Below, piece after piece: positions 16,393-28,303 of a DNA stretch of 28,303 nucleotides; the stretch's first letter is position 1, and every line of letters starts with the position of its first letter. The notes under the pieces were generated by a model that worked only from the letters and a program-made list of their open reading frames with translations, had not been told where the DNA came from and did not search any database. Location: IMG/VR virus record IMGVR_UViG_3300009169_000077, positions 1 through 28,303 of that record. The stretch is one strand, 5' to 3'. Position numbers and translations under genes: made by a program. Source of the DNA: a virus.

Positions 16393-17292
16393 TTACTTTG
16401 ACTTAATTTTTAATATTGTTCTATTAATTAGTTGCTCTAGCATAGTTTTTTCATCATCTTTAGTATGATAAGTTCTTAATATATTATCTGGTTCTTTTTC
16501 AAAATGTTTTTTCATAACATCAACATTTCTTATATCATCATCTGAAAATCCTACCATAGGTGCAACTGGAACAAATTTATTACTCACATCATTTACAAAT
16601 TGATATTCTTTTTTCTGTAATCTAAGTGATAATCTTTTCACATAACTTATAAATTCTTCCATCGCCCGAACTTTACCTTCTTCAGGGTTGGTTGCAGATC
16701 CTTCACCAAAACTTACCGGATAAAATTTACATCTATCTAAATAATCTTTAATTAAGGTATTTTCATCAGACATTGGTTTAAGTCCCATTTTTTGTCTATA
16801 AATATTTAAACTATCAACTAGTTGTTCTTTATCTAAACCACCACGACCCATCATTATTAATTTATAAACACCTTTTTTAAGGGTATTTGGATTATGTCCT
16901 CTAGCGGTAATGATTGAAAAAATTGACCCGTTGTTAACTGCCTCAACAAAATCCATCCAAGGACCTCTCACTAATGGAGCATTTTCTATATCACGTAAGA
17001 ATTTTTGATCACCCGCAGTTCTAAAATATCTGAACGGATCATTACCAAAACCAATAATAGTCTCACCATTATAGTTAAATGGTTTTTCTCCAATCTCGGT
17101 TCTATATTCCGCAAAGTCTTCAGTTGACATACCAACTTCATTACCTTCTTCATTCTTTAGAACAATTTGTGTTGGCATTTTCATTAGATTATCGTCCCAA
17201 TCAAAAGCATAATACTTTAAACCATATTGTTTTTCTTCTATTTCATTTACCATTTCGGTAATGATTTGTCTGGTTAAAATTTTATAATTCAT
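16393..17292 (-). CDS. HAD-superfamily hydrolase with an ITE leader
   Basis: The start is placed at ATG 17292 (299 aa, MNYKILTRQIITEMVNE). A TATTTAT element ends 15 nt before it, whereas the in-frame ATG at 17307 abuts that element directly. Numbered from 17292, motif I is FDWDDN (D31 and D33), motif II is in SIITARG, and an acidic motif IV is GFSDDDIRN near the C-terminus. These are the signatures of a Mg-dependent HAD phosphatase; the substrate is unknown. The leader ends IITE at residue 13, matching the (L/I)-x-E processing motif of T4 prohead protease substrates. The protein may therefore be packaged in the head despite being encoded between sheath and tube. The HAD call is good; packaging is inference. 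Confidence 0.75.
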   Translation of the reverse strand: MNYKILTRQIITEMVNEIEEKQYGLKYYAFDWDDNLMKMPTQIVLKNEEGNEVGMSTEDFAEYRTEIGEKPFNYNGETIIGFGNDPFRYFRTAGDQKFLRDIENAPLVRGPWMDFVEAVNNGSIFSIITARGHNPNTLKKGVYKLIMMGRGGLDKEQLVDSLNIYRQKMGLKPMSDENTLIKDYLDRCKFYPVSFGEGSATNPEEGKVRAMEEFISYVKRLSLRLQKKEYQFVNDVSNKFVPVAPMVGFSDDDIRNVDVMKKHFEKEPDNILRTYHTKDDEKTMLEQLINRTILKIKSK

Positions 17293-17307
17293 ATTAATAA
17301 ATATCAT

Positions 17308-17359: not shown

Positions 17360-20300
17360 TTAGATATTTTCGAACGATGCTCCTGTTGGAGTAATGTAGA
17401 ATGTAATATCTATAAATTCAAGTGAACGAGTTGGTTTGATATAAATCTTACCCGTCATTTGATTTCTGTCTAAGTCCGCAGTATCACTTGAAACTGTAAC
17501 TCGGAAATCATATAAACCTCGGTCTCTTCTAATAGAGTCTAAAATTGGATTAACCGCATTTAAGAAATCTTGTCTTACTTGTTCGTCATTTTGATCAAAC
17601 AACAATCTAACTGAAACTGAAGATATCAACTTACGTGCTTGTAATAACAATCTTCTTACGTTGATTCTATCAAGTGCGGATTCTCTTGATTGAAGGGTCT
17701 TATTACCCCAAATTACTGTACCAACATCAGAGAAGGTTGCAATTGGGTTAAGTCTTCCAAGGTAAAGTGTGTCTCTATCTTCTTGAGTCAACTTCTTACG
17801 TGCTTTAACCGCATTTACAATACCACGAGTGTAACCCGCTGCTGCAAACCAAGGGAAGGCGATATTATCAGTTAATGCCAAGTTTCTTGTCACCTCAGCC
17901 GTTGGTGGAATGTAGATTTGTGTGTTGTTAACACTATCACGAGTTAATACCCAAGGATAGTAAGTTGCCGTGTAGTTGGAATCAATACCTGTTGTATCTA
18001 AATTATCAACCGCCTCTTGTGGGTAGATTAATCCGTCAATACCTGTTGTTGTTGGTAGGAACAAGTTGTAATCAGGTGTTGTTGTGATATACAATGAATC
18101 CGCTCTTTCGTTTTCAACCATATCAATTGCTGATTCAACTAAATCAGAGTTATTAACATAATCAATACCCGGAGTAACAAATACATTGATATTAACCGCT
18201 TCAGGGTTAGAGAATGTTCTAATACCTAACAAGTATGCGTAGTAGTCAGTATTTGCCCAAGTACGAGTTCCATCACCAATAGAGATTTGTTTAAACGCTC
18301 CCCATCCAGATGCCGTTGGGTATCTATCTGTAGGACAAGCCCCGTTAAGGAATCCTATTCTACCTAAAACATATTTATCACCGTTAGTTCTAAATTCTCT
18401 ATAGATATCCCATCCGTCAAATCCTCCTTGTACAAACAAAGTGAATTTTCTTGAGAATATTCTGTAGTAAGGACTTAACTCACTTGTTGGTTCAGATGCA
18501 AACGGTGCGTCCCCAACAAAGAATCTTGGTGTTCCACTTGTAGCAAACGCACTTGAGATCGTAAGACCACTTGCGTTTTTATCCATATGGTAACCTTTTG
18601 TTCTGTAAGACCACTCACCACCTTCTAAATTACAAGATGAAATTGGGTTTCTTTTACCTTTATATTCAAAGAAGTTACTATCATAACCCCAGAAATTTGA
18701 CATACCAAGATAAGTTCTTCTTATGTTATCACCACCTGTTGTAGTGGAATTGTCTCCACCTGTAGGTAAACCGAATGGTGGGTTATAAATTACTTCACCT
18801 GGGAAATCATATTTTGTTTTATAAATTGGGAATGGAGGAATTGCTCCTGAATACTCTCTAAAGTTAAATCCTTCAAATCCACAAGGTAACGCATCTACCG
18901 GAGCATCTTCGTTCATTTCAATCATAACATATTTAGAATTCAACTCATATTCACCGTCAAGTGTTCCAATCTTCTTTGCAATAAAGTTATTTTGACTTGG
19001 ATCTAACGTACAGTTTGTGAATTTCTCCAATACTGTAGGTGCCGAATCATTATCAAAATAATCACGAACCAATACTGTAAATGTTTGATTTGCAAATGAG
19101 ATATCAGAAATAGATATTTTAACTTCAGTATTTGCAGTATTACCATCTGATATCGTATAGAACTTAAATAAGTTATAAATTTTAGTACCTCTTAATTCAG
19201 ATACAACCCAAGGAGAACTTGGTGATTGGTATCTATCCAAGTACCACCCAATTGAATTTGAATCTTCACTTTGAGCAGAATTCAAAGAAATTAGGTTATT
19301 ACTTAAACCTCTAATGTACCCTTTCTTGTATGCATAATTTAACAAGTTTTGGAATCTTTCTTCCAACATTAATGGAACAACATTTCTTGGTTTTCCGAAA
19401 TTGGAAGTTCCGAACACTTTAGGTATGTATTTAGCATCACTCGCGGTGAAAGAAGTTTCAAACGAATAATTAGTTCCTTCATAATTTGTCGCATTAATAA
19501 CGAACGACATATAAGGATTTTTAGCAACACCTGAATAAGGTCCTGTCATGTCAAGTGTTACATCAGTAACTCCTGTTATTTCATATGTTGGGTTTGTACC
19601 ATCAACATAATCAGAAATACCTCTTGATCTTAATGTTCCAACTACCATATCATCATAGTCAGTAAATGAATTACCTGTATATAGATATAATTTACCTACT
19701 ACTTGACCTGAATAACAAGTTGTTATTTCTCCTGTATTTTGTGTTCCACCACTAGCGAAAGAACAAGGATTACAAGGATCATTTATTTGAACATTAACCG
19801 TCCAAGTTGTTGTTAAAGTACTATCTTCAGATGTTAATATATATGTTACAGAACCTGATGAAAAATCATTTGATGTCCCACCACTTGATTGTATTACCGA
19901 ATTAACGCTAACACCACTCGTACATGCGCTGAATGTAGGAACCAACGTAGATAACACACAAGTTGATGTCCCAGATGGTAAACATACGTTTATTGTGTTT
20001 GTATTATAATTAATGATACCGTTAGTAGTTGCGCCAACAATACCAACAACAACATAAGCATCATTGTTAGAAGTTAATTGTGAAATTAGGACAGTATCAC
20101 CTACTTGATAACCACTACCTTCACAATTAACTGTTACTCCCGTAACAACATTCGCACCATCAACCTCTATATCAACGGTTAATCCCGCACCTACACCTGT
20201 GATTGTTGTTGTTGTTAGATTTGTTGATGCGGTATATCCTGTACCTCCTGAAACAATAGGATCAAATGAAGTAACCGATCCTCCAACACTAAGTGAGTTA

Positions 20301-21184
20301 AATGATGCACAATTACTTGATGTTGATGTGGCAGTTGTTCCCGTCACATAAGAATAGAATGAGAAACCTGTATAATTACCATTTCCTGTATTATCAAATA
20401 ATGCATAATACCAAGAATCATTTAATGGTGATTCAAGATTAGTTGCATCTAAAGAGACTGAAGGAACACTAAAATTGTTATTCTCAGTTCCCGCAGAAAA
20501 AATTGGGTGTAAAACATTATAATCATCAGTATCAATAGAACCGAAATAATCAATAACTGTTTGACCTGAAGAAGGAATATCTAATGTGATGATATCATAA
20601 ATTGTTCCTGTTATATCATCATTTAAAGTTGATGTCCCACCATTAAATTGTTGGTAAGAATTATTTAAGATTGATTGAATTTGACTTGGGAAGTTACTTG
20701 TAAATCCTACAGATGATATGTTGTTTGTACATCCCGTAAAATCAACAAGGATATCAACAGTGTTTGCTGATGTACATTCAAATAAACAATCAACCGTTAC
20801 ACCACTAGCACAATCAAATCCGATTGTTGTTGGATCAACGTTTGCCACAGTTACGATAGACCAAGATGGTCCTGCATCATAACCTGATAATCCCAATACT
20901 CTTGTTACGAATAATTGGTTAGATTGTTGTAAATATGATTTTGCGATGTAAGCCGCTTCATATTTAGGGATTTGAGTATTTACGAATTTCTCAGCAGATG
21001 TTCCACCAAAAAATGCAGTAAATTCATCAAAGTTTCTGATAAAGATTGGTTCGAAAGCAGGTCCTTTTAAAGTCTCTCCCACAATACCTAAAGTGGTAAC
21101 ACCAACGCTTTGTGCAACGAAACTTAAGTCTACTTCTGAAGTATATACACCTGGTGATACAAATACTTTACTGTTAGTTGCCAT
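17360..21184 (-). CDS. Tail sheath protein with a large insertion
   Basis: The N-terminus (VFVSPGVYTSEVDLSF, then IVGETLKGPAFEP) and the C-terminus (about residues 1160-1274: SRESALDRINVRRLL, DIRRDRG-like RRDRGLYDFRV, TGKIYIKPTRSLEFIDI) are diagnostic of the phage sheath family. It contracts around the tube at infection. At 1274 residues it is about twice T4 gp18 (659). The extra length is mostly residues about 110-515: Ser/Thr/Gly-rich beta sequence with about 12 cysteines and a GGTGYTAST...GSGYQVGDTVLI module (about 310-363) like decoration domains of phage surface proteins. The leader is A-rich with no Shine-Dalgarno sequence. A TATTTAT element lies 33 nt upstream and a terminator follows the stop. 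Confidence 0.92.
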   Translation of the reverse strand: MATNSKVFVSPGVYTSEVDLSFVAQSVGVTTLGIVGETLKGPAFEPIFIRNFDEFTAFFGGTSAEKFVNTQIPKYEAAYIAKSYLQQSNQLFVTRVLGLSGYDAGPSWSIVTVANVDPTTIGFDCASGVTVDCLFECTSANTVDILVDFTGCTNNISSVGFTSNFPSQIQSILNNSYQQFNGGTSTLNDDITGTIYDIITLDIPSSGQTVIDYFGSIDTDDYNVLHPIFSAGTENNNFSVPSVSLDATNLESPLNDSWYYALFDNTGNGNYTGFSFYSYVTGTTATSTSSNCASFNSLSVGGSVTSFDPIVSGGTGYTASTNLTTTTITGVGAGLTVDIEVDGANVVTGVTVNCEGSGYQVGDTVLISQLTSNNDAYVVVGIVGATTNGIINYNTNTINVCLPSGTSTCVLSTLVPTFSACTSGVSVNSVIQSSGGTSNDFSSGSVTYILTSEDSTLTTTWTVNVQINDPCNPCSFASGGTQNTGEITTCYSGQVVGKLYLYTGNSFTDYDDMVVGTLRSRGISDYVDGTNPTYEITGVTDVTLDMTGPYSGVAKNPYMSFVINATNYEGTNYSFETSFTASDAKYIPKVFGTSNFGKPRNVVPLMLEERFQNLLNYAYKKGYIRGLSNNLISLNSAQSEDSNSIGWYLDRYQSPSSPWVVSELRGTKIYNLFKFYTISDGNTANTEVKISISDISFANQTFTVLVRDYFDNDSAPTVLEKFTNCTLDPSQNNFIAKKIGTLDGEYELNSKYVMIEMNEDAPVDALPCGFEGFNFREYSGAIPPFPIYKTKYDFPGEVIYNPPFGLPTGGDNSTTTGGDNIRRTYLGMSNFWGYDSNFFEYKGKRNPISSCNLEGGEWSYRTKGYHMDKNASGLTISSAFATSGTPRFFVGDAPFASEPTSELSPYYRIFSRKFTLFVQGGFDGWDIYREFRTNGDKYVLGRIGFLNGACPTDRYPTASGWGAFKQISIGDGTRTWANTDYYAYLLGIRTFSNPEAVNINVFVTPGIDYVNNSDLVESAIDMVENERADSLYITTTPDYNLFLPTTTGIDGLIYPQEAVDNLDTTGIDSNYTATYYPWVLTRDSVNNTQIYIPPTAEVTRNLALTDNIAFPWFAAAGYTRGIVNAVKARKKLTQEDRDTLYLGRLNPIATFSDVGTVIWGNKTLQSRESALDRINVRRLLLQARKLISSVSVRLLFDQNDEQVRQDFLNAVNPILDSIRRDRGLYDFRVTVSSDTADLDRNQMTGKIYIKPTRSLEFIDITFYITPTGASFENI

Positions 21185-24855: not shown

Positions 24856-24872
24856 AAGAATAGATTGTTTAG

Positions 24873-24879
24873 TATTTAT
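24873..24879 (+). promoter_or_regulatory. TATTTAT element upstream of paralogue 1
   Basis: TATTTAT on the plus strand, 15 nt before ATG 24895, supporting that start over the TTG at 24865. Confidence 0.4.
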
Positions 24880-24894
24880 GTTAAAACATTTAAT

Positions 24895-25347
24895 ATGGAT
24901 AAGATTTTAATCTCTAACATAAATAGAATTAATGGTGTTATGGGTCTTAATGAAATTACTTATAGAGAGCTTCAGGCGTTAGGTAATGATGGTCGTGTTG
25001 GGTCTACTATATCTGAAATTGCATTAAAATGGTTAAACAAGGGGTTTGGTAATTTAATTAAGATGGTTATTGATGATAAGATATATTATGTTGATGAAAA
25101 CAAATTTCCGTTACTTATGTATGGTAAGGATGACACAACAACTTTTGATGACACAACAATTTTTGTAAATTACGAAAAAATTTGGGTATTTTTTGAATCC
25201 ATTTTTGGTCTGAAAGACTTGCAAACACAGGAGATACTGAAGGTATGGTTGGAACAGACCTATAATTTAAGGGATTTTGGGGTAACTTATATGGCGGACT
25301 TAATGATGAAGATGTTAGATGATTTACCCCCACTTAAACCATTATGA
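24895..25347 (+). CDS. Aromatic-rich repeat-family protein, paralogue 1 (150 aa)
   Basis: The start is placed at ATG 24895 because a TATTTAT element ends 15 nt before it; a TTG at 24865 in the same frame would add ten residues and overlap that element. Residues 1-41 are unique and end in ISE. Residues 42-128 are the repeated domain: ALKWLNKGFG, IYYVDENKFPLL, IFVNYEKIWVFFESIFGL and VWLEQTYNLRDFG. The C-terminus is methionine- and leucine-rich and ends in PPLKPL. I do not recognise the domain. Its abundance of W, F and Y and its recurrence in three neighbours mark a phage-specific family. ISE directly before the domain fits a prohead-protease-like cleavage site. Confidence 0.75.
   Translation: MDKILISNINRINGVMGLNEITYRELQALGNDGRVGSTISEIALKWLNKGFGNLIKMVIDDKIYYVDENKFPLLMYGKDDTTTFDDTTIFVNYEKIWVFFESIFGLKDLQTQEILKVWLEQTYNLRDFGVTYMADLMMKMLDDLPPLKPL
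25248..25270 (+). repeat. 23-bp direct repeat, source copy
   Basis: GTTGGAACAGACC followed by TATAATTTAA is in frame here, within WLEQTYNL of paralogue 1. The identical sequence occurs at 28173-28195 in another frame. Confidence 0.85.
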
Positions 25348-25379: not shown

Positions 25380-27842
25380 ATGAAAGTATCTATTAAACAT
25401 ATTAAATGCTCAATGTCCCAAGAAAGTAAGGATCTTGCCAAAAAATTTATTAAGTTTTTAAATGATAAATACCCATTAAAGGACGACATTTTAGTTTCTT
25501 TCTTGGGTGATCGCACAGGTCAAATGACGACTGGTAGTAGAAGTGATGAGTTTGGTATTAAAATATTAACTAAAGGTCGGTTGAACCGAGATATCTTAAG
25601 AACCCTTGCTCACGAATGGATTCACGAACATCAAATGACCATATTAAAACGGGAAATTGGCCAAGATATTGGTGGAAAAAATGAGGATGAGGCAAATGCT
25701 GGTGCTGGACGATTAATTAAAATGTTTGAAAAGGAACACCCCGAAATGGTTAATATTGTTTATGAGGGGTTAAAACCCATTTCAAATAGAATTGATATCT
25801 TAACAGAACAAATCGTATTATTAGATAAAATTAACATTCAAAAAGAATTCATTACCGAAATGAAAAAAATTGGTATTGAGAAATTACCCTATTCATATTC
25901 GGCATTAAAACAATTTGTTGATCCTGAAACAATGGATGTTCATTATAACAAACATTATAAAGGTTATGTTAAAAAATTAAATGATGCCTTATCAAGTAGA
26001 AAAGGTGATATAGAACTTGAGGATATTATTAAAACAATCACTAAATTTAATACAAAGGTTAGAAATAATGCTGGTGGTGCATTTAATCACGCATTGTTTT
26101 GGAAAATGTTATCACCAAAAAAACAAACTTTAAAAGGGGATCTTTTAGATAAAATAACAAACCAATACAAATCATTTAAAAATTTTAAAGAAGAATTTAA
26201 TAAGGCCGCCTTGGATAGTTTTGGTTCAGGTTGGGTATGGTTGGTTTTAACAAAAACTAATAGATTAAAAATTATTACAACACCAAACCAAGATAACCCA
26301 TTAATGAATGATGTTAATGGTGGATATCCAATACTTGGGTTAGATCTTTGGGAACACGCATATTATTTAAGATATAAAAATAAACGAGACCAATATATTA
26401 ATAAATTTTGGAACCACATTAATTGGGAATTCGTTAACGATCTTTTTAATTTAAAAACAAACAAAAAAGAAACAATTAATGAATCGGTTGATCATAAGGA
26501 AAAATCAGCATTAAAATGGTTAAACAAGAAATTTGGTGATTTAACTCCGGTGGTTAAAGATGATAAAACATTTTATGTTAATAAAGACAGATTACCATTA
26601 TTTTACTATTATCATAATGGTTCAACAACTGGTTATATATATATAAATTACAAAAGAATTTGGGTATTTTTTGAAAACATTTTTGGTCTAAATAATTTAC
26701 AAATAAAGGATATCCTAAATGTATGGTTGGATGAGACCTATAATTTGAGGGACTTCACACCCGTTGATTTTTCAAGAATTAAATTCGACCCATTGGATGA
26801 GAACTATAATTCAGAAACAATTAACGAACATTTTATTTTATCTGAAAATAAAGAAGTCTTCCCATTAACCTCAAAATCTTTTAGAAGTTTAATAAACAAT
26901 GCTTACCCTAAATGTGAAGGTTTAAAATACACAAACGGTTGTTTAGGGAAAATTGAAACAGAACAATGTAAAACTGATGTGGGAATTATTGGTGGTAAAT
27001 ATTCGGAACAAAATTATGGTGGTAATGGTAATTGGTCAATCATAAACAGATTTGATACAAATAGTTCGGTACATAAAGAAATTCAAAAAATTTGGTCTGA
27101 GGAGACTGGTTCTACGGAAAATTTTAGAAAATGGATTATAAACAACATTGGAGAACTAGTAGGTGACAAAGGTAGATTTACCGAAAGATTGGTTGATATA
27201 AATAAAAACACTATTTTAACTGGTAGAGAAAATGAAAGTTATGCAAAAACAGTTATAATAAACAAATTTAAATTAAACCCTGATGAAGAAGGTCTTACTT
27301 GGAATATTATAGAAAGATGTGCTGGTGATGTTAGGGATAGAAAATTAGGTCAAGATTTTGATGTGATAATTGATGGGACTTCTTATTTTGTGCAAGTTAA
27401 ACCGGTTGATTATTCGTTGATTGAAAAATTTGGATCCGAAAGAGGGTATTATTATAAAGTTCCTTCTTGGCATAATCACAATAAATATAAAGAATCTAAT
27501 GTTGATATTATTCTTTACGTTGATAGACCTAAGAATAAATACATAATGTTTAGAAACGATTACTCAAGAATACAAACTGTGGCAAACCCAACGACATTCC
27601 CTAAGTTTTTTGTATATTATTATGAAAATCCAATTTATACAAATATGGAGTTTGAGGTACATATTGAAACAGAAAAGATTGATGCTAAACCAAAACTTGC
27701 AAGGAATAAAGAAAACGAAATAGATTATTATAAAGAAAGAATACAATATTATAAAGATAAATTAGGAGAACTTGGTGATTCTGAATATATTACTGAAAGG
27801 CTTAAGTTTTACAATAAAGAGTTATATCAACTTATTAATTAA
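25380..27842 (+). CDS. Putative polyprotein: HEXXH zincin, Mn superoxide dismutase, repeat domain, PD-(D/E)XK-like
   Basis: An 820-residue multidomain protein. Residues 1-143 hold HEWIH (H78, E79, H82) and a downstream EDEANAGAG (E104), the layout of ImmA/IrrE-like zinc metallopeptidases. Residues about 163-355 are a full Fe/Mn superoxide dismutase: LPYSYSALKQFVD, TMDVHYNKHY (ligand H188), GGAFNHALFW (H237), FGSGWVWLV and LGLDLWEHAYYL (D322, H326). NQDNPLM (Q304) and GG at 232-233 favour manganese. Residues about 377-459 are the aromatic-rich repeat domain. The C-terminal part (484-820) includes GQDFDVIIDG...FVQVKP (D659, Q672, K674), a PD-(D/E)XK-like core. The tripeptides ITE158-160, INE366-368 and INE481-483 precede the SOD, repeat and C-terminal domains, as expected for a protease-processed precursor. 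A TATTTAT element ends 5 nt before the ATG. Dismutation is well supported; processing and packaging are inference. Confidence 0.85.
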   Translation: MKVSIKHIKCSMSQESKDLAKKFIKFLNDKYPLKDDILVSFLGDRTGQMTTGSRSDEFGIKILTKGRLNRDILRTLAHEWIHEHQMTILKREIGQDIGGKNEDEANAGAGRLIKMFEKEHPEMVNIVYEGLKPISNRIDILTEQIVLLDKINIQKEFITEMKKIGIEKLPYSYSALKQFVDPETMDVHYNKHYKGYVKKLNDALSSRKGDIELEDIIKTITKFNTKVRNNAGGAFNHALFWKMLSPKKQTLKGDLLDKITNQYKSFKNFKEEFNKAALDSFGSGWVWLVLTKTNRLKIITTPNQDNPLMNDVNGGYPILGLDLWEHAYYLRYKNKRDQYINKFWNHINWEFVNDLFNLKTNKKETINESVDHKEKSALKWLNKKFGDLTPVVKDDKTFYVNKDRLPLFYYYHNGSTTGYIYINYKRIWVFFENIFGLNNLQIKDILNVWLDETYNLRDFTPVDFSRIKFDPLDENYNSETINEHFILSENKEVFPLTSKSFRSLINNAYPKCEGLKYTNGCLGKIETEQCKTDVGIIGGKYSEQNYGGNGNWSIINRFDTNSSVHKEIQKIWSEETGSTENFRKWIINNIGELVGDKGRFTERLVDINKNTILTGRENESYAKTVIINKFKLNPDEEGLTWNIIERCAGDVRDRKLGQDFDVIIDGTSYFVQVKPVDYSLIEKFGSERGYYYKVPSWHNHNKYKESNVDIILYVDRPKNKYIMFRNDYSRIQTVANPTTFPKFFVYYYENPIYTNMEFEVHIETEKIDAKPKLARNKENEIDYYKERIQYYKDKLGELGDSEYITERLKFYNKELYQLIN

Positions 27843-27845
27843 TAT

Positions 27846-27888
27846 AAAATGATATGAAAATAATAATAACTGAAAGTAGTAGGGACAG
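27846..27888 (+). repeat. 43-bp direct repeat, copy 1
   Basis: This stretch (AAAATGATATG through GGGACAG) is identical to 28194-28236, 348 bp downstream. It covers the last 8 bases before the ATG and the codons for MKIIITESSRD. Flanking sequence is similar but diverged, so it marks a tandem gene duplication. Confidence 0.9.
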
Positions 27889-28195
27889 GTTGGTTTTAAA
27901 ATGGTTAAACAGAGAGTTTGGCGATCTTACTTCGGTGGTTAGAGGTGATAAAACATATTATGTTGATGAGGACAGAGAACCATTATTTTACTATAACCAG
28001 GATGAAAAAAATGGGGTTGTTTATATAGATTACGACAGAATTTGGGTATTTTTTAATTCTATTTTTGGACTGAAAGACCCTCAAACACGAAAGATTCTGA
28101 AGGTATGGTTGGGGGAGACCTACAATTTAAAGGGTCTCACACCAAAAAATGGAATAATCTCTTTCCACCACTGTTGGAACAGACCTATAATTTAA
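27854..28195 (+). CDS. Aromatic-rich repeat-family protein, paralogue 3 (113 aa)
   Basis: The protein begins MKIIITESSRDRLV and continues straight into the repeat domain: LKWLNREFGDL, KTYYVDEDREPLFYY, VYIDYDRIWVFFNSIFGL and VWLGETYNLKGL. The leader ends in ITE at residue 7, like T4 capsid-targeting sequences cut after (L/I)-x-E. The last residues, SFHHCWNRPII, come from a 23-nt stretch that elsewhere (25248-25270) encodes part of WLEQTYNL in a different frame, so the C-terminus is a recombination scar. It starts 11 nt after the 820-residue gene and is followed 6 nt later by the next copy. No known function; possibly an internal head protein. Confidence 0.8.
   Translation: MKIIITESSRDRLVLKWLNREFGDLTSVVRGDKTYYVDEDREPLFYYNQDEKNGVVYIDYDRIWVFFNSIFGLKDPQTRKILKVWLGETYNLKGLTPKNGIISFHHCWNRPII
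28173..28195 (+). repeat. 23-bp direct repeat, out-of-frame copy
   Basis: Identical to 25248-25270 but read in another frame, giving the C-terminus WNRPII and stop of paralogue 3. It indicates that an extra repeat unit was largely deleted, leaving its end fused behind this gene. Confidence 0.8.
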
Positions 28196-28236
28196 AATGA
28201 TATGAAAATAATAATAACTGAAAGTAGTAGGGACAG
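28194..28236 (+). repeat. 43-bp direct repeat, copy 2
   Basis: Exact copy of 27846-27888, beginning within the stop codon of the preceding gene and covering the start of the next paralogue. It shows that the leader region is conserved at the DNA level and could support unequal recombination. Confidence 0.9.
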
Positions 28237-28303
28237 ATTGGTGTTTAAGTGGTTACACAAAGAGTTTGGTGATTTAACTCCGGAGGTTAAAGGTGATAAA
28301 ACA
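28202..28303 (+). CDS. Aromatic-rich repeat-family protein, paralogue 4 (partial)
   Basis: The frame opens with ATG at 28202 and runs off the right edge after 34 codons. It begins MKIIITESSRDRLV, identical to the preceding gene for 14 residues, then FKWLHKEFGDLTPEVKGDKT. Its first 35 nt lie within a 43-bp exact repeat of the preceding gene's start region. The array therefore continues to the right. This region has the same ITE leader and start of the repeat domain; the rest cannot be seen. Confidence 0.75.
   Translation, partial: MKIIITESSRDRLVFKWLHKEFGDLTPEVKGDKT

Follow-up and report, generated by a model that had tools for sequence, protein, structure and literature searches.

The 820-residue protein encoded in the window (the complete 28,303-nt stretch of viral DNA analysed here) joins a zincin-like domain, a superoxide dismutase (SOD), a repeat domain, and a module with a nuclease-type fold, and the junctions between these modules carry a conserved [LI]xE motif. 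In phage T4, L/I-X-E is the cleavage motif of gp21, and the capsid targeting sequences are N-terminal propeptides which gp21 removes (available text of PMC9026906). Modules of the window protein are also found on their own behind short leaders that end in this motif, and a gene for a gp21-family protease is present in relatives. We lean towards the view that the protein is a precursor composed of leader-cargo units, which would be packaged in the prohead, cut by a gp21-type protease, and ejected in parts together with the DNA. The relevant features of the window are as follows (a slash follows the Glu of [LI]xE).

24865..25347, plus strand: neighbouring ORF, with GLNE/I ... TISE/I followed by a copy of the repeat domain
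25380..27842, plus strand: polyprotein gene, 820 aa (ORF call and translation)
25380..25766, plus strand: zincin-like domain, residues 1-129, HEWIH at 78-82, EDEAN at 102-106 (invariant motifs; weak family matches; 7 distinct free-standing relatives)
25767..25859, plus strand: linker 130-160, corresponding to the leader of the SOD module, ILTE/Q (143) and FITE/M (160) (column conservation; alignment with the N-terminal leaders of zincin-less SODs)
25860..26453, plus strand: Mn-type superoxide dismutase, residues 161-358, H188, H237, D322, H326, and Q304 (Pfam, structures, alignment)
26454..26483, plus strand: SOD/repeat junction, INE/S at 368 ([LI]xE column conservation)
26484..26804, plus strand: repeat domain, one copy, about residues 369-475 (three further copies in the window)
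26805..26846, plus strand: repeat/nuclease junction, INE/H (483) and LSE/N (489) (conservation of column 489)
26847..27797, plus strand: C module I (C-I), residues 490-806, PD-(D/E)XK-type nuclease fold, E619, D659, Q672-V-K674 (AF2, Foldseek, VIA)
27798..27839, plus strand: C-terminal tail after YITE (806) (conservation of column 806)
27854..28195, plus strand: neighbouring ORF, leader MKIIITE/SSRDRL followed by a copy of the repeat domain
28202..28303, plus strand: ORF cut by the window end, MKIIITE/SS followed by the start of a copy of the repeat domain

The frame, start, and length given for this ORF in the initial annotation were all borne out by the ORF check, and the single polypeptide does combine several disparate enzyme-like domains. 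Searched as a whole, the protein has no match in PHROGs at E <= 0.1; among NCBIfam models it matches only those for SODs, all below their cut-offs, and all 50 matches listed in the fold search with the whole-protein model are SODs.

The SOD is the best-defined part. It had been annotated as an intact Fe/Mn SOD, and this is confirmed by both Pfam halves, which score above cut-off (Sod_Fe_N at residues 167-245, E = 7.5e-21; Sod_Fe_C at 252-354, E = 3.9e-40). The four proposed metal ligands H188, H237, D322, and H326 are invariant across the 36 proteins of alignment A1. Among solved structures, the closest matches are bacterial Mn SODs, that of Staphylococcus included, and the glutamine of the NQD motif, which we take to be a signature of the Mn type, suggests the same for the window protein. 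All ligand motifs and this glutamine are kept in 123 of 124 distinct relatives (proteins holding a GLD or NQDN string), the exception being L127, a 327-aa variant without the first part of the SOD, first ligand included. Ligand conservation in the relatives rules out a disrupted SOD, and a decaying gene is ruled out because dN/dS of the SOD is low (0.02-0.12 in nine pairs). As judged from the sequences, the SOD is thus intact and under purifying selection. Given an intact SOD, the initially proposed role against oxidative stress is plausible; the enzyme may blunt superoxide from respiration that is disturbed at entry, or it may protect the genome inside the particle when virions are in sunlit water.

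In bacterial and archaeal genomes, 67 loci match, mostly from Bacteroidota and at no more than 50% identity, and they do so solely inside query residues 121-390 (reading frames were inspected at 8 of them). One contig filed under a Fluviicola MAG (L202/L262) is probably phage sequence because its SOD is identical over 241 aa to the SOD of a 222-kb viral contig.

The zincin region had been annotated as residues 1-143. Its HEXXH/EAN motif stands, but its end is better placed near residue 129 because this boundary is shown by free-standing relatives (7 distinct proteins of 128-137 aa, which end at or shortly past the linker start). Across 32 aligned zincins, H78, E79, H82, and EDEAN 102-106 (including E102 and E104) are invariant, and the domain thus has the HEXXH plus downstream Glu of zincin metallopeptidases. 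Matches of these 32 to HEXXH peptidase families are weak: DUF6055 in 21 (best E 1.5e-5), SprT-like in 11 (best 0.0078), and DUF4344 in 4 (best 0.0015); the window copy itself matches none of the three. A zincin profile found nothing at E < 0.05 among PDB sequences, and a search of annotated phage records found the domain in one phage only, Synechococcus phage S-SRM01, in two records. The window zincin, which is the first module, and the stand-alone zincins are devoid of an N-terminal leader. In the tails of the free-standing forms there is one formal [LI]xE match (L155), which lies inside the domain.

The repeat domain exists as annotated, but its limits are about 369-475 rather than 377-459. 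Flanking ORFs contain two more copies, and the window end truncates a third; related contigs L006 and L008 also hold copies, and the domain seems to multiply locally. When it stands alone in this window, it starts with MKIIITE/SS. Its placement between SOD and nuclease is a rarer arrangement, seen in the window and in L005, L006, and L008. There is no match to the repeat domain or to C-I in annotated phage records, and Pfam gave nothing convincing for the repeat region or the C modules.

For the C-terminus, which had been described as PD-(D/E)XK-like, the core fold is supported with weak scores, but the canonical D/E of (D/E)xK is replaced by Q672. C-I, modelled alone by AF2 over residues 490-820 from 22 sequences, has a mean pLDDT of 83.6. 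Foldseek returned 89 matches, none at E <= 0.001, with the top four being chains of I-Ssp6803I (E 0.014-0.065, probability 0.95-1.0). VIA gave nuclease rows over model residues of about 120-266 (Z 5.1-7.5) as well as helical-hairpin rows over 286-331. The fold resembles I-Ssp6803I, Hjc, and DpnI, plus chains of SPARDA complexes. E619, D659, Q672, and K674 are invariant in the 22 sequences, with QxK in place of (D/E)xK. With all Foldseek matches above E 0.001 and with middling Z values, we treat this as a model-based fold assignment, not as proof of activity. Profile searches with C modules I, II, and III found nothing at E < 0.05 among PDB sequences, and C-I has no match in BFVD at E <= 0.001. 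According to the model, C-I could be a nuclease against host DNA. The zincin motif and the nuclease fold are the basis for the remodelling of host proteins and DNA that the initial annotation had raised, and they do no more than suggest it. A packaged nuclease needs a reason for sparing phage DNA; QueC, which would provide one through DNA modification, was not found in the five records searched.

Fusions of this kind are not confined to the window. An initial scan of viral contigs detected 135 stretches with a relative (80 kept); scanning with the zincin detected 129 (80 kept), and the L202 SOD as query detected 218 (80 kept). The first two scans yielded 89 distinct proteins, the window protein included. 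The remaining 88, classified by BLAST, comprise 7 zincins alone, 21 zincin-SOD proteins (a class that includes proteins cut by contig ends and some with a repeat domain after the SOD), and 29, 16, and 15 proteins in which zincin-SOD is followed by C-I, C-II, and C-III, respectively. There are thus at least three exchangeable C-terminal modules after zincin-SOD, and a fourth, recognised by eye from its GxD...QxK pattern, follows zincin-less SODs (L327, L329, L331, L340). The zincin-SOD proteins occur in dozens of metagenomic phage contigs, and an assembly artefact is therefore ruled out as the source of the fusion. In 50,697 annotated phage records, 28 match the whole protein, all within query residues 126-371. 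The domain combination, initially regarded as unique, is so with respect to the annotated phage records searched; in metagenomic phages, zincin-SOD fusions are common. The carriers are a group of uncultured phages frequently encountered in environmental DNA.

Several further features were seen in these genomes. The window encodes a tail sheath protein of 1274 aa (17360-21184, minus strand), in which sheath domains match only about the last 290 residues, and a protein with IITE/M near its N-terminus followed by an FDWDDN motif, presumably like that of HAD phosphatases (16393-17307, minus strand). A 290-kb relative carries 22 clustered tRNA genes (L111, 1915-8107).

The evidence for processing starts from the junctions. 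In an alignment of 59 distinct proteins, we searched for columns with at least 15 rows and [LI]xE in at least 60% of them. Only columns 143, 149, 160, 368, 489, and 806 passed, and all of these belong to linkers or to the C-terminal tail. The motif is present in 53/59 rows at column 143, 58/59 at 160, 44/47 at 368, 34/42 at 489, and 18/27 at 806; at column 149 the window protein itself has Asp. Directly ahead of the SOD, it is found in 79 of 81 fused proteins, both misses having V for L/I (L127 is set aside, as its deletion covers this place). Ahead of the SOD, the 123 distinct proteins fitting the search pattern have Glu in 122 cases and [LI] in 121, followed by Met (Met161 in the window protein) in 119, and the middle residue of the motif varies. 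All 63 proteins that continue for at least 60 residues past the SOD have [LI]xE within 35 aa of its end. Of those ending with the SOD, 2/15 score formally, one in the last SOD helix (L128) and one at the stub of a further module (L171). In the first set, 47/47 junctions carry the motif versus 24.5 after shuffling (maximum 35), and the background inside domains is 22-31% of 35-aa windows. These counts are not to be read as probabilities because the relatives are not independent. The window protein has 14 [LI]xE in total, seven of them inside domains (83, 325, 452, 592, 645, 682, 797). Linker 130-160 has pLDDT < 50 in 24 of its 31 residues.

The second line of evidence is that modules also occur alone behind leaders. 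Of the 11 distinct zincin-less SODs, nine (L309, L327, L328, L329, L330, L331, L336, L338, L340) carry at their start a leader whose final [LI]xE directly adjoins the SOD; the exceptions are L273, which has no leader, and L262, which has LRE some 15 residues upstream of the SOD. Six of the nine leaders were aligned with the zincin-SOD linker, and the layout matches. In the zincin-less SODs, the frame is open with a Met about 30 codons upstream of the SOD. Among the newly fetched loci, two nuclease-like modules stand alone as well: C-I in one distinct ORF of 43 (L432 and L433 being one sequence) and C-II in one of 37 (L410). The former starts MKYIFTE/SQLDILKNKILINE/D (the middle part begins SQ and ends LINE), the latter MENIYYTIAE/QKMEKLSHVLNE/I (beginning Q and ending LNE). 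In L328 (878 aa), SOD, C-I, and C-II follow in succession, and the stretch before C-II resembles a complete leader with its own Met, as a tandem fusion of leader-cargo genes would leave.

Leaders of this type are enriched beyond the SOD-related genes. In G001 (290,887 bases), [LI]xE[SANQ] occurs within residues 2-35 of 61 of 282 ORFs, compared to 24.4 in shuffled sequences (maximum 38), where ORFs in this and the following counts are mechanical calls and not curated genes. Of the control motifs, the reversed one is somewhat elevated (40 vs. 24.8, maximum 38), and the others are near their shuffles. Agreement is strong in G005 (30/127 vs. 11.7, maximum 21) and weak in G004 (16/110 vs. 7.4, maximum 15). 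For immuto, an isolated Flavobacterium phage, the excess is weak (22/176 vs. 13.2, sd 3.2; maximum 23 in 300 shuffles).

Recurrent N-terminal leaders in G001 (L100-L114) are of the types MKRIVRLTESDLxRIV (4 ORFs), MNLQENIxRIKxMM (5), MKIIITExQ (10), and RFKQLLES...SEQ (2). Ten leader-bearing G001 proteins were scanned; two match M23 peptidase, one of them also phage lysozyme. In immuto, two pairs of proteins share leaders, among them two hypothetical proteins (MW353175, 25061-25456 and 111675-112139) with the common leader MKKQILSEQF(K/R)RMQ(F/K)LAGIITES. This pair offers a cultured place for testing the leader idea. A leader is common to immuto26A_41 and immuto26A_188.

A protease suited to such sites is encoded by most of the larger relatives examined. 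Peptidase S77, the gp21 family, was found in 5 of 16 relatives' records and in 7 of 10 further ones, where the records are hand-chosen relatives, two of which, G001 and G002, may be almost identical versions of a single phage. Among the records larger than 140 kb, 10/11 have it, while no S77 match was found in G003 (274 kb) and no such gene was seen in the 28-kb window fragment. A gp23-type capsid protein is present in the same 5/16 records. In the capsid proteins of G001, G002, G004, and G005 (G008 was left out), LINE/A is located some 60 residues from the N-terminus; T4 gp23 maturation removes 65 residues (521 to 456). In the G002 protein, the first segment homologous to T4 gp23, a weak match, starts right after LINE, corresponding to residue 80 of full-length gp23. 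The proteases inspected also have [LI]xE near the N-terminus, ahead of the core and mostly before S (e.g., IIKE/S). At the module junctions, [LI]xE is positioned as at the propeptide boundaries of gp21 substrates.

In the mechanism that we favour, the linkers between zincin, SOD, repeat, and nuclease module would descend from short N-terminal leaders for prohead-core targeting. They would bring the precursor into the prohead core, where the S77 protease would cut after [LI]-x-E during head maturation, freeing the zincin, a native-length Mn SOD (from Met161), the repeat protein, and the nuclease. The freed parts would leave the particle with the DNA, so that the dismutase and the host-directed enzymes would reach the cell at the very start of infection. 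As the zincin comes first and has no leader, packaging would rest on the internal leaders, for which we know of no precedent in T4. The initial annotation had envisaged several effectors delivered together. This gains indirect support from the gp21 consensus at the boundaries, the modules that stand alone behind leaders, and the protease in relatives. Cleavage of a precursor into separate proteins is more probable than action as a single uncut polyprotein.

Three other explanations were weighed. The SOD might be an auxiliary metabolic gene within an uncut multifunctional cytoplasmic protein, with the nuclease acting on host DNA and the junctions serving as binding or helix-forming linkers. We consider this unlikely, although isolated jumbo phages have annotated stand-alone SODs, the zincin-SOD linker is predicted to be helical (with low confidence), and the gene adjoins one for an SNF2 helicase and in G001 lies far from the capsid cluster. 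A structural linker does not readily account for a pre-SOD Glu and [LI] that are nearly invariant around a variable middle residue, for the motif past the SOD whenever a module follows, or for leaders of the same kind on other proteins. Alternatively, the zincin might cleave the chain to which it belongs, either ahead of packaging or inside the host cell, freeing SOD and nuclease, a role that Iyer et al. propose for the zincin-like domains in polyvalent proteins of phages and plasmids (available text of PMC5512222). The invariance of the zincin motif would fit, but SOD-nuclease proteins that lack a zincin carry the same junction motifs, the seven free-zincin loci inspected have no SOD or C module within 5-6 kb, and the motif at the junctions is the one recognised by the head protease and is present in that protease's own sequence as well as in the capsid protein, which makes self-processing quite improbable. 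That the modules arise from internal translation starts such as Met161 rather than by proteolysis appears very improbable: Met161 is likely the ancestral SOD start, yet conservation of the preceding Glu is slightly higher, and the open frame of the zincin-less SODs reaches a Met well upstream of this position.

Beyond the single protein, we give about even chances to a genome-wide capsid-loading code in these T4-like phages, with interchangeable [LI]xE leaders on dozens of different proteins and with cargo genes joined into genuine polyproteins for cleavage by the prohead protease inside the head, a SOD being among the cargo. This would be the first SOD known to us in a bacteriophage particle, delivered at entry. 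It would supply a rule for reading the protein cargo of a phage head from sequence, extend the viral polyprotein strategy to tailed phages (eukaryotic viruses also cut polyproteins), and place an antioxidant enzyme inside the particle of phages that recur across many environmental samples. The role of superoxide in the first minutes of infection, or for DNA in light-exposed virions, would become testable. In the available text of the literature searched, neither a SOD in a phage polyprotein nor enzymes freed by a head protease were found described.

T4 cargo consists of one protein per leader, and to our knowledge no T4 cargo is a SOD. The window protein differs from the T4 internal proteins in having several domains per chain, internal leaders, and a first module without a leader; because a leader at its own N-terminus, a defining feature, is missing, we do not file it among them. 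It resembles T4 IPI-III and Alt with gp21 in its [LI]xE sites and short leaders, and in the gp21-family protease and gp23-type capsid protein of its relatives; T4 Alt is processed at its C-terminus, too (available text of PMC9026906 and PMC7411985). With the polyvalent proteins (Iyer et al. 2017, PMC5512222) it shares the multidomain phage protein, disparate enzymes, a zincin-like domain, and predicted delivery with the DNA, but the available text of that paper contains neither "superoxide" nor "dismutase" and assigns processing to the zincin rather than to a head protease.

Individual modules have other counterparts. C-I shares its fold with I-Ssp6803I and Hjc-type PD-(D/E)XK nucleases but differs in its weak scores, lack of a sequence match, and QxK. 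Large Pseudomonas phages such as PA5oct and MIJ3 also have a SOD of the Fe/Mn family, but it is only 28% identical in the aligned part and matches only at query residues 156-357. Cu/Zn SODs are unrelated to Fe/Mn SODs. A functional parallel is nevertheless provided by the Cu/Zn SOD of chlorovirus PBCV-1: this viral enzyme, which differs also in its eukaryotic host and in having a gene of its own, is reported to be packaged in the virion, and infected cells to contain less superoxide than those infected with virus lacking the SOD (available text of PMC7019647).
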